Source: Candidatus Thermoplasmatota archaeon
GTDB lineage: Archaea > Thermoplasmatota > Thermoplasmata > UBA10834
Reading direction: 5' to 3'
Length of the DNA: 36,082 nucleotides
Assembly: GCA_018814355.1 (NCBI GenBank)
Contig: JAHIZT010000109.1
Coordinates: forward strand, 1 to 36,082
Both the position numbers and the translations under genes were made by a program. A model generated the notes under the pieces. The model was given only the letters and a program-made list of their open reading frames with translations, did not search any database and was not told the DNA's origin. The number at the start of each line of letters is the position of its first letter. The stretch's first letter is position 1. This document shows, piece after piece, positions 14,377 through 28,803 of the stretch.

Positions 14377-15291
14377 GTGGCGAGCTGCGACAAGTGCGGG
14401 AAGAGACCTGTGATCCTCATCAGGTACAGCGGCGCTCACCTTTGCGGAGACCACTTCTGCGATTTCGTCGAGAAGCGAGTCAAGCATGAGATCCGGCGAC
14501 AGATTGATCTCAAAGGTGGCGAGAGGGTAGCAGTCGCGGTATCTGGCGGAAAGGACAGCACAGTGGCCCTCCATCTGGCCAACAAGATCCTCGGAGCTAG
14601 GAGGGACCTTGACTTGTGCGCAATCACCGTGGACGAAGGGATCATTGGGTACAGGGAATCGAGCATACCCATCGTAGCGGAGTACTGCCGCTCGATTGGC
14701 GTCGAGCACGTTGTGGTCTCGTTCGAAGACATGTTTGGCAGCACCATGGACGAGATCGCGAAGAGGGACAGGCCCTTAGCGACTTGCAGCTACTGCGGCG
14801 TCCTGAGGCGCGCAGCGATAAACAGAGCCGCCAAGAGATGGCACGCTAGCTACATTGCCACGGGTCTGAACCTAGATGACACCGCCCAGTCTATCTTGAT
14901 GAACTTCTCCAGGGGAGATGTCGAGAGGTTGGCCCGGCTCGGGCCCCACAAGCGCGTCCAGATGAAGCTTGTCCCCAGGATTCAGCCTCTGAGGACGATT
15001 CCAGAGAGCGAAACCACGCTCTATGCTTTGGTGAATGGGCTCAAGTTCCACGACCTTGAGTGTCCCTATTCGCCTGAGGCGTTGAGGAACACTTACAGGT
15101 CTGTCGTTGCGCAGCTGGAGGACAAATGCCCTGGGACAAGGCATTCCATACTGAAGTCTTATGAAGAGATCCTTCCAACGCTCGAGAGAATCTACCCGAG
15201 CGCGAAGCTCAGAAGCTGCTCTTGCGGCGAACCGACCATGTCCAAGAAGTGCAAAGCGTGCGAGCTCGTCGATTCATTAGATGATTACTGA
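14377..15291 (+). CDS. ncs6: tRNA 2-thiolation protein (Ncs6/TtuA family)
   Basis: This family activates a tRNA uridine by adenylation and inserts sulfur at C2 (wobble U34 or T54, depending on subfamily). The 304-residue protein has an N-terminal zinc site C4, C7, C23, H26, the PP-loop SGGKDS at 56-61, and a cysteine triad C137, C140, C229 matching the [4Fe-4S] triad of TtuA. A C-terminal zinc finger (CSCG...CKAC) completes it. The sulfur carrier protein is not in the window. I cannot separate U34 from U54 specificity by eye. The gene has its own promoter and is convergent with the next gene, with 1 nt between the stops. Confidence 0.9.
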   Translation: MASCDKCGKRPVILIRYSGAHLCGDHFCDFVEKRVKHEIRRQIDLKGGERVAVAVSGGKDSTVALHLANKILGARRDLDLCAITVDEGIIGYRESSIPIVAEYCRSIGVEHVVVSFEDMFGSTMDEIAKRDRPLATCSYCGVLRRAAINRAAKRWHASYIATGLNLDDTAQSILMNFSRGDVERLARLGPHKRVQMKLVPRIQPLRTIPESETTLYALVNGLKFHDLECPYSPEALRNTYRSVVAQLEDKCPGTRHSILKSYEEILPTLERIYPSAKLRSCSCGEPTMSKKCKACELVDSLDDY

Positions 15292-16927: not shown

Positions 16928-18223
16928 TCAGAGGTCGCCGTCGTACTCTGGGTAGTCGTAGGCCTCCTCGCCTTCGAAGAAGCAGTAGTGCACCTTGGTG
17001 AACTGGCGCTTGAACGCGACAACATCGCGCTTGACCTTCTCAGGGACCTCTCCCTTGACGACAATCCTGGAGATGAATTCTGCCACATCGCTCATTTCCT
17101 TCTCCTTCATGCCAAGTCTGGTGAGTTCCTGAGAGCCTATCCTGATCCCGCAGGGCTTGACCGGGTTGGAGTCCCAAGGCAGGAGGTTCTTGTTGAGTAT
17201 GATGTTCGCGCTCTCGAGATCCTTTGCGACCTTCGCACCTCCGTGGAATTCCTCAACATCCACGACGATCGTGTGCGATTCCGTGAATCCCAGGTGCTCG
17301 CAGAGGACATCCATTCCTCGCTCGTGGAGAGCCTGCCCCAAAGCCTTGGCATTCCTTATGACCTGGTCCGCATAGGCCTCGCCGAACTCCTTTGTCTCAG
17401 CCAGGGTTACTGCAAGGGCTGCAACGGAATGGAGATGGTGATTGCTCGTTACTCCCGGGAACACACCGCGCCTCAGGGCGGTCTCGAGGCCATCCTTCTG
17501 AAGGTCCGACAAGATCATGCCATGCTGCGGACCTGGAAGAGTCTTGTGGGTACTGCCGGAGATCACGTCGATCCCCTCTTTCAAAGGGTCCTGAAACCTG
17601 TTCCCCGCAATCAGCCCCAGGACATGCGCAGCGTCGTACCATGTCGAGCAACCGACCTCCGCGAAGACGTCCTTGAGCTCGTCCAAGGGCGTGGGGAATA
17701 GGAAGACTGACTGACCGAAAAGCGCTACCTTGGGCTTGACCTCCTTGATCAACCTTCTGGCGCCTTGGATGTCTACGTTCATGTTCTTCTCGTCGAACGG
17801 GTAGTTGAAGGTCCTGATTCCCCGCATTCCAGTCGCGCCTATCTTCGCATGGGAGATGTGGCCGCCATCGGATAGGGCGACCGTGGTCATCTTGTCTCGA
17901 GGTTTGGTGAGGGCCATCAGCACGGCCATGTTTGACACGGTCCCAGATGTGGATCGCACATCAGCGAACTTGCACCTGAAGACCTCCCTGGAGAGCTCTT
18001 CACAAATCGTCTCGATCTGATCGACGTAGATATTGCCCTGGTAGTATCTTCTGCCCGGCAGACCCTCGGCGTACCTGTTGTTCAGGTCGGAGTTGATGAC
18101 CTCCCTGGCAGCTGGGCTCATCACGTTCTCAGAAGCTATGAGAGGGATAGAATCCTTGAACCAGCCGCTGTGCTTCCTCGTCAGATCCCGGACCATCTGG
18201 GCTAGTTCCTTCGGCAATGGCAC
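16928..18223 (-). CDS. glyA: Serine hydroxymethyltransferase
   Basis: GlyA is a PLP enzyme that interconverts serine and glycine while charging a tetrahydropterin with a one-carbon unit. With the GTG start at 18223 it has 431 residues, the usual archaeal length. It shows ASENVMSP near the start, NRYAEGLPGRRYYQG, the PLP-binding K227 in GSTHKTLPGPQHG, and HTIVVDV towards the end. A longer frame runs upstream to 18496, but those residues cover the divergent promoters and look unlike the family. The TATA box at 18245-18253 lies 27 nt before the GTG. It may draw on the pterin made through mptD. Confidence 0.93.
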   Translation of the reverse strand: MPLPKELAQMVRDLTRKHSGWFKDSIPLIASENVMSPAAREVINSDLNNRYAEGLPGRRYYQGNIYVDQIETICEELSREVFRCKFADVRSTSGTVSNMAVLMALTKPRDKMTTVALSDGGHISHAKIGATGMRGIRTFNYPFDEKNMNVDIQGARRLIKEVKPKVALFGQSVFLFPTPLDELKDVFAEVGCSTWYDAAHVLGLIAGNRFQDPLKEGIDVISGSTHKTLPGPQHGMILSDLQKDGLETALRRGVFPGVTSNHHLHSVAALAVTLAETKEFGEAYADQVIRNAKALGQALHERGMDVLCEHLGFTESHTIVVDVEEFHGGAKVAKDLESANIILNKNLLPWDSNPVKPCGIRIGSQELTRLGMKEKEMSDVAEFISRIVVKGEVPEKVKRDVVAFKRQFTKVHYCFFEGEEAYDYPEYDGDL

Positions 18224-18244
18224 AATTCTGGGGAACAAATCGAA

Positions 18245-18253
18245 GATTAAAAA
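18245..18253 (-). promoter_or_regulatory. TATA box of glyA
   Basis: The minus strand reads TTTTTAATC, centred 27 nt before the GTG at 18223. This decides the glyA start and predicts a leaderless mRNA. Confidence 0.65.
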
Positions 18254-18370
18254 CGTATGCACGACCCGCTCGTTCATCGTAGTGCTGTCCGTGCGCTCGA
18301 CACACTCAAGGCTACTCGGGTCTCGAGTGGTTGCAGTGGAAACGTAGGGTGAGAATCCGTAAGGAACATA

Positions 18371-18376
18371 TTTATA
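18371..18376 (+). promoter_or_regulatory. TATA box of the RHH regulator
   Basis: TTTATA within ATATTTATAG, centred about 43 nt before the ATG at 18417. Transcription should begin near 18400, immediately after the palindrome at 18380-18400. Confidence 0.65.
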
Positions 18377-18379
18377 GAA

Positions 18380-18400
18380 TGTATGACAATGTGTCATACA
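18380..18400 (+). promoter_or_regulatory. Perfect 9-bp-arm palindrome, probable RHH operator
   Basis: GTATGACA-ATG-TGTCATAC (18381-18399) is a perfect inverted repeat, extended by a T/A pair on each side. It sits between the TATA box and the predicted transcription start of the RHH gene, a classical repressor position. Autoregulation by the encoded protein is the simplest reading. Confidence 0.6.
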
Positions 18401-18416
18401 AGGCACCGAGATTACG

Positions 18417-18818
18417 ATGACAACGAAGAGCGCACGTCTCAACATACGACTGCCCGAAGACGACATGCTGGAGCTCGAAGCTATTCGCGAGCGCACTGGC
18501 CTCCAGAGCGTATCCGACGTCGTGAGGGAAGCGATCGGCGCCTACCTCCACGACGAAGTCGCGACCTGGAACTCGGAGAAGATCAAGGCGATCGTCCCCA
18601 TGGCACTGCTCGAAGATGTCGAGATGTTCATAGCTAGTGGTGACGCCACGGACATCTCCCAAGCCGTAACGCTCGCCCTTGCTGGATGGATCGAGGAGAA
18701 GAAGCGCTACTACCTCGAGGGCAAGGAGGCTCTCCGCCAGAAGGTCTCGGAATCAGTCGAGGAGCGCGGGATGAGAAAAGGGATGGCTCGGACCGCGTCT
18801 CGAATGAGAATCCAATGA
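18417..18818 (+). CDS. Ribbon-helix-helix regulator with two RHH-like units
   Basis: This is a 133-residue DNA-binding protein. Residues 7-46 (ARLNIRLPEDDMLELEAI then SVSDVVREAIGAYL) form a standard RHH/CopG unit. Residues about 56-96 (KAIVPMALLEDVEMFIAS then DISQAVTLALAGWIEE) look like a second, diverged unit. The C-terminus is basic. Length resembles NikR, but the nickel-binding His/Cys residues are absent. It sits behind a palindrome and is divergent from glyA, with their start codons 193 bp apart. An autorepressor role is inferred; control of glyA is possible but unsupported. Confidence 0.78.
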   Translation: MTTKSARLNIRLPEDDMLELEAIRERTGLQSVSDVVREAIGAYLHDEVATWNSEKIKAIVPMALLEDVEMFIASGDATDISQAVTLALAGWIEEKKRYYLEGKEALRQKVSESVEERGMRKGMARTASRMRIQ

Positions 18819-23898: not shown

Positions 23899-23917
23899 CT
23901 CGGCCTTTATGCGCGAG

Positions 23918-24628
23918 ATGATGGCTTCAGCTGCCGTGATGAAGGCGCTCCAGGAACTCAAGCAGGGCCGCATCGTGTTAGTCTACGACGCAGATGGCCG
24001 CGAGGAGGAGACCGACATGGTCGTCGCCTCGGAGTTCGTCGCACCCGCGGTCATCAGGCTCCTCAGGAAGGATGCTGGTGGCCTGATCTGCACCACTGCA
24101 GACACCAGGATCCAGCGCGCCCTCGGCCTCCCGTTCCTCACTGAGCTCTTCCTCGGAATGGCCGAGCATTATCCAGTCATGCGAAGCCTAATCCCCAACG
24201 ACATCCCATACGATGTGAAGTCAGCATTCGGAATCACGATCAACCACAGGAAGACTTTCACTGGAATAACGGACAACGACCGCGCCCTCACTGTCAAGGA
24301 GTTCGCGGAGCTGTCGAAGCGCGCCCTCACTTCCGAGGACGGATGGGCGAAGAGGGAGTTCGGGAAGTGTTTCAGGGCACCCGGGCACATACATCTACTG
24401 AATACTTCCGAGCGCATACTTGAGACGCGGCTCGGGCATACAGAATTAGCGACTGCGCTTGTGATCATGGCGGGGCTGGTTCCCTCCGCAACCGTCTGCG
24501 AGATGATGGGCGAAGATGGAAAGGCACTCTCGAAGGAGGAGGCAAAAGCCTATGCGAAGAAGCAGGGGCTCGTGTTCCTAGAGGGAGCTCAGGTCGTCGA
24601 TGCCTGGAAAGAGTCCGGGAAAAGGTGA
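23918..24628 (+). CDS. ribB: 3,4-dihydroxy-2-butanone 4-phosphate synthase
   Basis: RibB converts ribulose 5-phosphate to the four-carbon unit of riboflavin plus formate. The protein has the DREEETDMVVASE block (written here as GREEETDMVVASEF), with the acidic metal-binding loop near residues 27-33, DNDRALTV, and RAPGHIHLL with the catalytic His. A late RLGHTELATALVIMAGL segment completes the family pattern. Starting at ATG 23918 it has 236 residues; an ATG at 23909 lies too close to the TATA box. There is no fused GTP cyclohydrolase II domain, as usual in archaea. It is the first gene of the riboflavin/FAD operon. Confidence 0.93.
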   Translation: MMASAAVMKALQELKQGRIVLVYDADGREEETDMVVASEFVAPAVIRLLRKDAGGLICTTADTRIQRALGLPFLTELFLGMAEHYPVMRSLIPNDIPYDVKSAFGITINHRKTFTGITDNDRALTVKEFAELSKRALTSEDGWAKREFGKCFRAPGHIHLLNTSERILETRLGHTELATALVIMAGLVPSATVCEMMGEDGKALSKEEAKAYAKKQGLVFLEGAQVVDAWKESGKR

Positions 24629-24634
24629 GCGTTC

Positions 24635-25551
<917 letters not shown>

Positions 25552-25561
25552 GGATCGAGAA

Positions 25562-25568
25562 AGGAGGT
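25562..25568 (+). promoter_or_regulatory. Strong Shine-Dalgarno site before ribH
   Basis: AGGAGGT lies 6 nt before the ATG at 25575 in the 23-nt gap after ribC, the strongest ribosome-binding site I noticed in the window. It may raise output of this multimeric enzyme relative to upstream genes. Confidence 0.65.
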
Positions 25569-25574
25569 AGTCAT

Positions 25575-25988
25575 ATGGCAGGAAGAATGAAGATAGGCAT
25601 CGTCTGCAGCGAGTACAACTTCGACATCACGCAGATGATGCTGGAGAGGGCAAAGGAGCACGCGAAATTCTTGGACGTTGAGGTGGCCAAGGTCGTCATG
25701 ACGCCGGGAGTCTACGACATCCCGCTCGCCGTCAAGAGGCTCGTGAAGGACAAGAACATCGATGGAGTCGTGACCATAGGCGCGGTCATCGAGGGCGAGA
25801 CGGAGCACGACCAGATCATCATCGGCCAGGCAGCCAGGAAGATCACGGACCTCGCGGTGGAGTACGAGAAGCCGATCAGTCTTGGCATCTCAGGGCCGGG
25901 GATGACGAGGCTGCAGGCTGAGGACAGGATCGAGAGGGCCAAGGACGCCGTCGAGTCCGTCGTGAAGCAGTGGAAGGCCATGAAGTAG
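25575..25988 (+). CDS. ribH: 6,7-dimethyl-8-ribityllumazine synthase
   Basis: RibH condenses the RibB product with the pyrimidine intermediate to give lumazine. The 137-residue protein has the substrate-binding EYNFDIT near residue 13, VVMTPGVYDIPLAVKRL, and GAVIEGETEHDQII with the catalytic His. It is at the normal short archaeal length. It is the last gene of the rib operon. No riboflavin kinase, pyrimidine reductase or GTP cyclohydrolase gene is in the window. Confidence 0.94.
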   Translation: MAGRMKIGIVCSEYNFDITQMMLERAKEHAKFLDVEVAKVVMTPGVYDIPLAVKRLVKDKNIDGVVTIGAVIEGETEHDQIIIGQAARKITDLAVEYEKPISLGISGPGMTRLQAEDRIERAKDAVESVVKQWKAMK

Positions 25989-26035: not shown

Positions 26036-27949
26036 GTGGGCGCAATCATACTGGGCAAGATCCATTTGCGCTGGTGCGACAGCTGCAATCTGCCAGTTCT
26101 AGAGCAAGCGTCGTGCGGAATCTGTGGAGGCAAGACCAGACAGGTTGAACTCACGCCTCCTGGAGATGCCCGCCCTGCATTCGAATCCGACATCACGAGG
26201 ATTAGGAAGCTCATAGATGATCAGTTCGGGAAAGGCGTTGGACGGGCCGTTATCCCTGACGGACGGATCGTGCTTCTCAACAAGGCGCCGGACATCGATC
26301 GGATGGACGAGATCATCCTCGATGGAGAGGTCGTCGGAGCGGTCAGATTCATTCTGCTGGATGGAGAGAGGTTTCTTCCACGGCCCATCAGCGCTGAGCG
26401 GATCGCACCCCATGTGAAGAAGAGCTGGGTCAGAATCGACCCTGTTGCGGCCGAGGCTGTCCGCATGAAGAAAGCGAGCACGCTCGCGGTGGGCGTCCTA
26501 GAGTGCGATCGGGAGATCGAGCCTGGTAAGGAAGTTCTTGTTCTGGACCAGGAAGGAGGAGCAGTATCCGTGGGCGTCGCAAAGATGTCGTCCTCAGAGA
26601 TGATGGCGCACAAACGCGGAACTGCAGTAAAGACGCGTTGGAGCGTCAGTGGGATGCCGTCCAAGACGATTCAGAAAGCTGCGGGATGGGGCGATGTTAT
26701 TGCCGCGAACCGCGAAGTCATCTCCCGGCGCGTTCAAGAAGCAAAGAAGTTCATTCTCAAGATCATCGAAGAGAGCAAGCTGCCCGTTGCGGTCTCCTAC
26801 AGTGGTGGGAAGGACAGCCTGGCAACGCTCCTCCTCGTACTCGAAGCTGGCATCAGGCCAAAGCTCATCTTCGTTGACACTGGTCTGGAATTCGAAGAGA
26901 CGAAGAGAAACGTCGTGGAGACCGCAGAGATTCACAATCTTGAGCTCGTCGTTGAGAGCGCGGGCGAATCGTTCTGGAAGAACCTGGACCACTTCGGTCC
27001 TCCGGCAAAAGATTTCCGGTGGTGTTGCAAGACATGCAAACTCGGACCCGCGACCCAGCTGATACAGAAGAACTTCCCCGAGGGAGTCCTGTCGTTCATC
27101 GGTCAAAGGGCTTACGAGTCTCAGCAGAGAGCGGAGAAGAGCAAGGTCTGGCGGAACCCTTGGACTCCCAACCAACTCGCCGCGTCACCGATACAGAAAT
27201 GGTCCGCGCTTCATGTCTGGATATACCTGTTTTCAAAAGGCGCGAAAGTGAATCCTCTGTACGCTGAGGGGCTGGAGAGGATCGGGTGCTTCATGTGTCC
27301 AGCCACAGATCTGGCCGAGCTCAGGAAGGTCAGGGATATCAGCCCACAGTATGCGCGCTGGCAAGGATTCCTTGAGGAGTTCGCTGAAAAGAACGGGAGG
27401 CCCTCAGCGTGGCTCGAGTATGACCTCTGGCGCTGGAAGAGGATTCCCAAGTCCGTACTCGACGAGCTCGCCCCGATAGGGGAGGGAATATCGGCGTTAG
27501 CCATTCCGGCTCCGGAGTCCGCCCAACTCGAATTCAGGAGCACAAGCGGCTACAGTCCCTGCGTCGAGGGTCTGAGCATGGAGGGCGTGTTCAGCAGACC
27601 ACTCCCCATGGACAGGGTCGCCAACATGCTCAGCATAATTGGCCCAGTCACCACGTCACCAGACATGAACATCGCCGAGGTCCGGTCGATCACGGTCTTC
27701 TCCGAGGGTCCGGTGATGGTCAAGGCCAGGGACGAGAATGAGCTCCGAGAGAAAGCATCCATGCTCAGGGAGGTCGTCTTCCGGGCGGTCAACTGCGCGG
27801 GATGCGGGATATGTACAGTCAGATGCAAGAACGGTGCACTTCATCTAGATGGACAGGTCATTATTGACCTAAAGAAGTGCAATCATTGCGGCGCCTGTCT
27901 TGGCCCTTGCCCAGCAGTCAAGTTCCGTGAAGACGAGTTGGATATCTAG
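26036..27949 (+). CDS. Zinc ribbon-PUA-PAPS reductase-like PP-loop-ferredoxin fusion
   Basis: The 637-residue protein combines four parts. An N-terminal zinc ribbon has C14, C17, C27, C30. A PUA-like RNA-binding domain spans about residues 128-205. A PAPS-reductase-family PP-loop domain has SGGKDS at 256-261, the adenylating core. A C-terminal 2x[4Fe-4S] ferredoxin has C587/590/593/597 and C615/618/621/625. Within the PP-loop part, C330-C331 and C418-x-x-C421 match the CC...CxxC cluster motif of APS reductases, but I find no ECGLH catalytic tail. Annotators usually call such proteins PAPS reductase; the PUA domain suggests RNA as substrate. Its stop shares CTAG with the convergent gene. Confidence 0.85.
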   Translation: MGAIILGKIHLRWCDSCNLPVLEQASCGICGGKTRQVELTPPGDARPAFESDITRIRKLIDDQFGKGVGRAVIPDGRIVLLNKAPDIDRMDEIILDGEVVGAVRFILLDGERFLPRPISAERIAPHVKKSWVRIDPVAAEAVRMKKASTLAVGVLECDREIEPGKEVLVLDQEGGAVSVGVAKMSSSEMMAHKRGTAVKTRWSVSGMPSKTIQKAAGWGDVIAANREVISRRVQEAKKFILKIIEESKLPVAVSYSGGKDSLATLLLVLEAGIRPKLIFVDTGLEFEETKRNVVETAEIHNLELVVESAGESFWKNLDHFGPPAKDFRWCCKTCKLGPATQLIQKNFPEGVLSFIGQRAYESQQRAEKSKVWRNPWTPNQLAASPIQKWSALHVWIYLFSKGAKVNPLYAEGLERIGCFMCPATDLAELRKVRDISPQYARWQGFLEEFAEKNGRPSAWLEYDLWRWKRIPKSVLDELAPIGEGISALAIPAPESAQLEFRSTSGYSPCVEGLSMEGVFSRPLPMDRVANMLSIIGPVTTSPDMNIAEVRSITVFSEGPVMVKARDENELREKASMLREVVFRAVNCAGCGICTVRCKNGALHLDGQVIIDLKKCNHCGACLGPCPAVKFREDELDI

Positions 27950-28803
27950 CGGAGAATCGCTTTCAACGCGCCTGTCACTTCGGAGGCGCGTGCTCCCCAT
28001 GGCACTATTGCCACATCCCCCTTGACCTCGTGTCCCTCCTTCACCTTGCAGCATTTTATGAGAAGAGGTCCCTTCAGGCCTTTCTCCCTGGCTATGTCCT
28101 GGGGACACATGTTTATCATGTCGGGCTCGACGCCGTAGATCGCCTTGAATATCCTCGCCGAGAGGCTGCAGCCTATCAGAGTCACTTGTCCAAGCTCCTC
28201 TTGTGTGAGTTCCGGGGTCTCATCCAGATAGAGAACTCGTTTCCCGTGCACAAGGCCAGAGGCTCTGCAAGGGAACATAGTGATCGCTGAGGACGCACTC
28301 TTCGCCAGATCATTTAGGTCGACCTCTTCCGTCCTGAACCTCACATACATGTTCTGGAGATCGGTCTCGAGGGAGCTCGTCACCAGGCCAACCAGCTTTG
28401 AGGGGCTCGGCGGAACCACATCGAATACTGTCAGCTCATACGGTGGCTCATCAATGAAGAATGAGACGTGCTCTGCCTTTCCCTTCACGACGATGCATTT
28501 GGTCCCCGCCTTTTCGCGTAGTGCACCCATTGAGCTGGCTGACAGGACGTCTTTGGTCGGATCTTCCACGAATCGAGTGTCGTGAGGAAGGGACAGAATA
28601 TGGACTGACGCAATCTCCTGGAGAACATCGTTCGACGGCTTTCTCACAATCAGAGCCACCGCCCAATCACTCCCCGAGTTGAAGACGTAATATCGGGTCC
28701 GGATGTACGCCCTCTTTCCTTTGAGGAACGATTTGATGCTCTCCTGGGTCAGCTCGAAGTTGACCTTCTTGACGCTGACTTCCTTGCAGTGCTCTGGGAA
28801 CAT
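27946..28803 (-). CDS. Uncharacterised soluble protein with CPQD and KCCK motifs
   Basis: I do not recognise a function. The 285-residue protein has no TM or signal peptide. The N-terminal half is alpha/beta with YYVFNSGSDWAVALIVRK (about residues 38-55). The C-terminal part contains SARIFKAIYGVEPDMINMCPQDIA and GPLLIKCCKVKEGHEVKGDVAIVPWG, whose cysteines (CP..., KCCK) look designed for metal or redox use. I recall similar proteins in methanogen genomes as a conserved domain of unknown function, but cannot confirm it. A TATA box (28837-28846, minus) precedes the ATG by about 38 nt. Its stop overlaps the stop of the PUA fusion gene by 4 nt. Confidence 0.68.
   Translation of the reverse strand: MFPEHCKEVSVKKVNFELTQESIKSFLKGKRAYIRTRYYVFNSGSDWAVALIVRKPSNDVLQEIASVHILSLPHDTRFVEDPTKDVLSASSMGALREKAGTKCIVVKGKAEHVSFFIDEPPYELTVFDVVPPSPSKLVGLVTSSLETDLQNMYVRFRTEEVDLNDLAKSASSAITMFPCRASGLVHGKRVLYLDETPELTQEELGQVTLIGCSLSARIFKAIYGVEPDMINMCPQDIAREKGLKGPLLIKCCKVKEGHEVKGDVAIVPWGARASEVTGALKAILR

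Follow-up and report, generated by a model that had tools for sequence, protein, structure and literature searches.

BrxP, a PAPS-reductase-like protein of type-4 BREX, has been assigned to DNA phosphorothioation; its PAPS domain is followed by an a+b domain and a ferredoxin-like, cysteine-rich 4Fe-4S region, and a DUF4007 DNA-binding part is fused to it (PMC12839542). Archaeal proteins of the type described here have been regarded as presumed APS/PAPS reductases, and it has been stated as a puzzle that the source of APS or PAPS is invisible in many of the hosts: many of these genomes lack genes for making either compound, and some homologues are reported to have a cysteine desulfurase domain fused to them (PMC6286981). 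For proteins of M. jannaschii, activity as APS and PAPS reductases has been reported (Lee 2011 and Cho 2013, as cited in PMC6286981), with low reductase rates for MJ_0973 (PMC3448663). Our literature search retrieved no paper linking PUA with PAPS reductase in such an archaeal protein.

Here, we analyse a protein encoded in a window of 36,082 nucleotides (the whole stretch of DNA under study). It is of a kind usually taken for a sulfate-assimilation enzyme, and the reductase name is likely to be wrong. What we add, as predicted from sequence comparison, is a C2-PUA unit, a core that matches BrxP from the PP-loop to the ferredoxin, and a conserved cysteine, C509, in a domain that no Pfam family matches.

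Results

Domain organization and family membership

The gene has a GTG start, contains no internal stop codons and encodes 637 residues; its features are collected in Table 1. The protein scores 670.9 bits with the equivalog model NF010368/PRK13795 of NCBIfam ('hypothetical protein'; curated cut-off 588), aligning residues 4-632 to positions 5-634 of the 635 in the model. This full-length match indicates that NF010368/PRK13795 is the same family, already named in that library, but given no function there. The Pfam matches to ferredoxin and TGT_C2 are weak.

Table 1. Features of the gene and its immediate upstream context, in window coordinates
Feature	Coordinates	Strand	Remarks
Whole gene	26036-27949	+	zinc ribbon - C2 - PUA - PP-loop/PAPS_reduct - C-terminal a/b domain - 2x[4Fe-4S] ferredoxin
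Zinc ribbon, residues 13-31 (C14, C17, C27, C30)	26072-26128	+	four cysteines 94-100% conserved in both subfamilies
C2-like domain, residues 47-130	26174-26425	+	as in archaeosine TGT and PH0734
PUA domain, residues 132-201	26429-26638	+	Pfam PUA, E = 3.1e-15, 56 bits, cut-off 24.8
PP-loop/PAPS_reduct domain, residues 251-423	26786-27304	+	Pfam, E = 3e-42
SGGKDS, residues 256-261, intact ATP-type PP-loop	26801-26818	+	shared by every A, B, C, BrxP and DndC sequence compared
C330-C331, motif FGPPAKDFRWCCK	27023-27028	+	first half of predicted PP-domain [4Fe-4S] site; invariant
C418-x-x-C421 (GCFMCP)	27287-27298	+	second half of predicted PP-domain [4Fe-4S] site; invariant
C-terminal a/b domain, residues 497-582	27524-27781	+	largely missing from short forms
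C509, conserved cysteine in SPC..G	27560-27562	+	candidate sulfur-carrying or catalytic residue
2x[4Fe-4S] ferredoxin, residues 583-630	27782-27925	+	Fer4 matches; cysteine conservation
ribB, predicted RibL-type FAD synthetase, ribC, ribH	23909-25988	+	directly upstream, 47-bp gap to the gene; context only

A paralogue of 641 residues, 33% identical, is encoded on another contig of the same genome. We call proteins of the window type subfamily A and those of the paralogue type subfamily B; conservation was assessed in an alignment of 76 proteins (59 of subfamily A and 17 of subfamily B) from loci drawn from genome contigs. Conserved in both subfamilies are W13, the four zinc-ribbon cysteines, SGGKDS, GPP.KDFRWCCK, GC..C, W465-R466-W467 and the eight ferredoxin cysteines (587, 590, 593, 597, 615, 618, 621 and 625). 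Each cysteine of the zinc ribbon, PP domain and ferredoxin is kept in at least 94% of the members of both subfamilies and its presence is therefore not due to chance; C334 is not conserved in the same alignment. The preliminary description of this DNA, made from the letters alone, had listed a zinc ribbon, a PUA-like region, SGGKDS and an eight-cysteine ferredoxin module. All four are confirmed, and the list was right as far as it went, overlooking C509 and the C2 half of the N-terminal head.

One 421-residue relative (L171:1456-2721, + strand) has the zinc ribbon, the head and the PP domain, lacks the ferredoxin and carries WCT in place of WCC; it resembles PRK08557/PRK13795.1-1.

The N-terminal head

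The PUA domain does not stand alone: together with the C2-like domain before it, it forms a C2-PUA unit of the kind present in archaeosine tRNA-guanine transglycosylase (TGT). In an hmmsearch of PDB sequences, residues 48-201 match residues 432-579 of archaeosine TGT (1iq8, E = 2.1e-11) and residues 47-206 match PH0734 (3d79, E = 2.4e-15). By Pfam, 46 of the 49 members aligned contain PUA and 23 of the 49 a weak TGT_C2. An AlphaFold2 model built with 49 relatives is of high confidence (mean pLDDT 89.5, pTM 0.89) and contains the PUA fold that had been expected of a structure prediction. Foldseek matches the model to the PUA proteins PH0734, NSun6, arcTGT and MCT-1, and also to APS/PAPS reductases, FAD synthases, CysD and TtuA.

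The PP-loop domain and its homology to BrxP

Four cysteines of the PP domain are invariant (C330, C331, C418 and C421), and 87 residues separate C331 from C418. The preliminary description had placed this spacing close to that of APS reductases. The spacing itself holds, the CysH value being 82-85, but APS reductases prove to be the wrong yardstick. In TtuA-type thiolases the [4Fe-4S] cluster is held by three cysteines, which leaves a free iron for sulfur; four cluster cysteines would leave none.

Searching the PADLOC profiles with the window protein gives BrxP (PDLC02510) as the top match (E = 3.4e-47, best stretch 220-423); the same profile matches the paralogue over residues 239-620 (E = 4e-56) and all 49 aligned members. 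Profile-to-profile alignment with hhalign pairs residues 215-631 with BrxP (probability 100%, E = 1.5e-56). By BLASTP, a BrxP from a Methanosphaera plasmid, standing in an annotated BREX-4 operon beside pglZ and brxL, aligns to residues 221-636 with 25% identity (E = 5e-30). Two BrxP sequences carry FGPPS..RWCC. When searched alone, neither the a/b domain nor the N-terminal head matches the BrxP profile, and no cysteine is visible in the BrxP alignment at the position equivalent to C509. The homology is therefore firm for two parts that occur in the same order, PP domain and ferredoxin, and only positional for the region between them; an extension into the N-terminal head was rejected, having no profile support. 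By these comparisons, the closest CHARACTERISED relative of the window protein is BrxP, which its core matches far better than it does APS/PAPS reductases.

In a tree of the PP domain, mean path lengths from the window protein are 4.5 to BrxP, 5.4 to DndC, 6.1 to CysD and 7.8 to CysH; because the branches leading to CysH and DndC are very long, several forks lack resolution and DndC comes out inside subfamily A at one of them, the tree is taken as supporting evidence only, read with caution and by relative path lengths.

BrxP proteins of type-4 BREX are encoded in two other Thermoplasmatota genomes (L169:2060-4435 and L170:1717-4023, both on the - strand; 993 and 823 bits), with PAPS_reduct, ferredoxin cysteines and a DUF4007-type C terminus. 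Viral contigs mostly encode generic PAPS_reduct proteins; one contig of the viral collection (L089:5001-6212) encodes a 25%-identical relative that spans residues 206-622, beyond the PP domain.

The C-terminal a/b domain and the short form

Residues 497-582 match nothing in Pfam, nor any PDB fold at E<=0.001, and they have no separate profile match to BrxP, so that no fold identity could be assigned to the a/b domain. C509 is a cysteine in 51 of the 59 subfamily A proteins (seven of the remaining eight are gapped there) and in 16 of the 17 of subfamily B. The exceptions are mainly the short form (L055-L061), plus L063 and L065. Short-form proteins (L055, L056, L057, L058, L060 and L061; about 573-603 residues) are without most of residues 500-575, C509 included, and keep the ferredoxin; PCNA is encoded directly upstream in their clade. 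C509 is thus dispensable for some members, being lost with most of this segment, and is nearly always present where the a/b domain is complete.

Sulfur genes of the genome

The PAPS_reduct Pfam domain, the CC...CxxC motif and the structural matches to CysH/APR would all fit a sulfonucleotide (APS/PAPS) reductase that serves sulfur assimilation, in which the ferredoxin takes the place of thioredoxin and the PUA domain serves something else; cysE downstream in some relatives and the reports of reductase activity among M. jannaschii proteins (PMC6286981, PMC3448663) point the same way. We nevertheless consider this reading improbable. The ECG[IL]H tail, present in six of six authentic CysH proteins, is found in none of the A, B, C and BrxP sequences compared; its absence from the window protein agrees with the earlier remark that no catalytic cysteine tail is seen. 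Conversely, SGGKDS is intact in the window protein and occurs in none of the six CysH proteins, that of E. coli having SSSFGIQ in its place. The score with the CysH model is 55.9 bits against a cut-off of 154, and CysH is the farthest group by tree path (mean 7.8, versus 4.5 for BrxP), albeit on a long branch of unresolved position.

The genome offers little to such a reductase. In the window genome (97.2% complete), we found no ATP sulfurylase (PF01747), no sulfite reductase (PF01077) and, for APS kinase, only a partial P-loop match of 53 residues and 21.3 bits, which is not convincing. PF01507 detects the protein itself, its paralogue and one protein below cut-off, with no CysD, separate CysH, DndC or BrxP; the cysH and sat partners that the preliminary description proposed to look for are thus missing above cut-off. 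As the genome is a draft, the absence of sulfate-activation genes is strong rather than absolute. Of 91 class genomes, 55 have the family, 35 have Sat and 15 have both; Sat accompanies the family in 15 of 55 genomes and is present in 20 of the 36 without it, so the two are not positively associated. Sulfur could come from elsewhere: the window genome encodes a NifS-type cysteine desulfurase (equivalog, 560.8 bits; cut-off 530.75), as well as a second NifS-like and one SufS-like desulfurase, both below cut-off.

With the ATP-type PP-loop intact, ECG[IL]H absent and genes for sulfate activation and sulfite reductase not found, assimilatory sulfate reduction is unlikely. Reductase activity on a free nucleotide, which the preliminary description had named as evidence against its proposal, may nevertheless already have been reported for M. 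jannaschii proteins (Lee 2011, Cho 2013, as cited in PMC6286981). M. jannaschii encodes a homologue of the family (profile E<=1e-50), which may or may not be either of the reported reductases.

Gene neighbourhood and distribution

In the window clade, ribB, ribL, ribC and ribH immediately precede the gene on its strand, and in ten loci ribH ends 39-50 bp upstream of it. In ten Methanomassiliicoccales loci, the next gene downstream, on the same strand and at most 300 bp away, is cysE, often followed by cysS. Trm1 is adjacent and convergent in three loci, and TgtA and TruD lie a few kilobases off in three. Among the loci compared, there is no conserved operon with an RNA-modification gene; otherwise, the neighbours are rib, cysE/cysS or PCNA genes (cysE, cysS, PCNA, Trm1, TgtA and TruD were named by eye from their sequences; cysE also has a hexapeptide-transferase Pfam match). 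Subfamily B has different neighbours, two membrane-protein families that are M50- and PrsW-protease-like by eye. Gene context is lineage-specific and by itself identifies no substrate.

The order gene-cysE, often then cysS, in Methanomassiliicoccales might suggest a sulfur-mobilising protein for cysteine metabolism, whose PUA domain binds tRNA-Cys or has a regulatory role. However, this arrangement is seen in one lineage only, with riboflavin genes in the window clade and PCNA in the short-form clade; the cysE-cysS pair is common in bacteria and its pairing here may be incidental. We therefore give such a role a small chance.

PCNA next to the short-form genes, together with the homology to BrxP over the whole core, could also be taken to indicate a housekeeping enzyme that phosphorothioates DNA. 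DUF4007 is neither fused to the protein, which ends at residue 637 after the ferredoxin, nor encoded by a neighbour; the protein has a C2-PUA head instead of this or another DNA-binding part. No dnd or ssp partners adjoin the gene, nor do the BREX operon genes pglZ, brxL or that for a BrxC-like ATPase, the genes there being those for riboflavin, an XcbA-family protein and carAB; the PF01507 search revealed neither DndC nor BrxP in the rest of the genome. Action on DNA is thus highly improbable.

The XcbA-family protein (DUF7714; NCBIfam CoM_XcbA_fam, 205.6 bits, cut-off 150; window 27946-28803, - strand) is encoded convergently, with a 4-bp overlap at the end of the gene, and is kept there in 12 loci; the genome is without McrA. 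Elsewhere in the window, the annotated start of a 522-residue open reading frame (16928-18496, - strand), serine hydroxymethyltransferase-like by eye, is probably too early, and the frame overlaps a ribbon-helix-helix-like one at 18417-18818 (+ strand).

The 55 carriers among the 91 sampled class genomes include all ten with McrA; of the control genomes, only M. jannaschii and M. acetivorans match the family, the latter with a score above its cut-off. A methanogenesis-specific enzyme was rejected, since the window genome and 45 of the 55 carriers are without McrA. An FAD synthase, brought to mind by the fold matches and the adjoining riboflavin operon, is not favoured, because that operon already contains a RibL-type candidate and the role would leave the invariant cluster cysteines unexplained.

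Discussion

Proposed function

A sulfur-adding core like that of BrxP, joined to an RNA-binding head, would probably put sulfur onto RNA. We give about an even chance to the family sulfurating RNA in an ATP-dependent manner, with tRNA as the most likely substrate. In this proposal, the zinc ribbon-C2-PUA head would dock RNA as in archaeosine TGT, and the intact PP-loop would spend ATP to adenylate an RNA oxygen, either a base carbonyl or, less likely, a backbone phosphate. A housekeeping cysteine desulfurase would supply the sulfur, which would displace the activated oxygen; in full-length members, C509 is a candidate for carrying this sulfur. The electrons needed may be supplied or tuned by the ferredoxin and by the [4Fe-4S] site predicted in the PP domain.

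The core homology to BrxP, the C2-PUA unit like that of arcTGT and PH0734 and the combination of SGGKDS with the loss of ECG[IL]H argue for RNA sulfuration, as do the missing sulfate-activation set, the NifS- and SufS-type desulfurases and cysE downstream in ten loci. Counting against it are a net charge of the C2-PUA head near zero, the lack of a conserved RNA-modification operon among the loci compared, the a/b domain that does not align to BrxP when taken alone, the absence of a visible C509 equivalent in the BrxP alignment, the four cluster cysteines, which would leave no free iron of the TtuA type, and the M. jannaschii proteins reported to have reductase activity (PMC6286981, PMC3448663). 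The preliminary description had proposed an enzyme that adenylates an RNA base and uses iron-sulfur chemistry, not one of assimilatory sulfate reduction; the direction of this proposal has been strengthened, with RNA as the predicted substrate.

The dicluster ferredoxin implies an input of electrons for which base thiolation has no obvious need. Together with the C2-PUA head, this could point to an ATP-dependent, electron-consuming RNA modification without thiolation, for example one that reduces an adenylated base or transfers a ligand to it. PP-loop enzymes include non-sulfur chemistry (TilS, QueC), which also counts for such an activity, but the closest characterised relatives, BrxP, DndC and SspD, are sulfur-transfer enzymes and the cysE context recurs in ten loci, making it rather unlikely.

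Within RNA sulfuration, we consider base thiolation, for which the PP-loop class offers precedent, likelier than phosphorothioation of the backbone. That a family member installs backbone phosphorothioates in a specific archaeal RNA, as an RNA counterpart of BrxP-type DNA phosphorothioation, seems very unlikely; the occurrence of phosphorothioates in RNA has been disproved for E. coli, yeast, human cells and mouse, a list that does not include archaea (PMC8597057).

Comparison with known systems

With archaeosine TGT (C2-C3(PUA)) and PH0734, the window protein has in common the C2-PUA pair, aligning to residues 47-205; the likeness is limited to this RNA-docking part, and the catalytic domain is unrelated. 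The tRNA thiolases TtuA, NcsA and ThiI resemble it in PP-loop adenylation and, for TtuA and NcsA, in having an Fe-S cluster; profile and fold matches to TtuA are weak. As an NcsA-like protein (14377-15291) and split ThiI-like proteins are separately present in the window genome, the family is not simply their replacement. Replacement of ThiI (s4U8) in particular was rejected, as 90 of the 91 class genomes encode ThiI-like proteins, for the most part split, regardless of the family. The split ThiI of the window genome consists of a 208-residue PP-loop protein (G000:C54:50058-50633; L174:3020-3643, - strand) and, on a different contig, a 304-residue THUMP-side protein (G000:C124:29369-29965; L175:2621-3532, - strand), a pattern of two partial matches that is common to most other genomes of the class.

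CysH has the same PP-domain fold and, in the APS type, also CC...CxxC, at the slightly shorter spacing given above; the ECG[IL]H tail belongs to CysH and the intact ATP-type PP-loop to the window protein, in whose genome the sulfate pathway was not found. DndC and SspD are closer in kind, being PP-loop enzymes with SGGKDS and an Fe-S site, and their models match all 49 members. However, the window protein scores 48.1 bits with TIGR03183, far below the cut-off of 290, the DndC motif is GCWxCT, and no dnd partner genes adjoin the window gene.

The most extensive likeness is to BrxP, with SGGKDS, GPP..xxRWCC and GCxxCP followed by an a/b segment and a dicluster ferredoxin. A C-terminal DUF4007 and a BREX operon are particular to BrxP, whereas the zinc ribbon-C2-PUA head, C509 and housekeeping neighbours are particular to the window protein. 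In place of the puzzle of the APS or PAPS source, a BrxP core with an RNA-docking head offers a testable prediction. The protein thus combines a BrxP core with an RNA-type head where BrxP has its DNA-binding part, which suggests that RNA modification and phage defence by phosphorothioation are linked in evolution.
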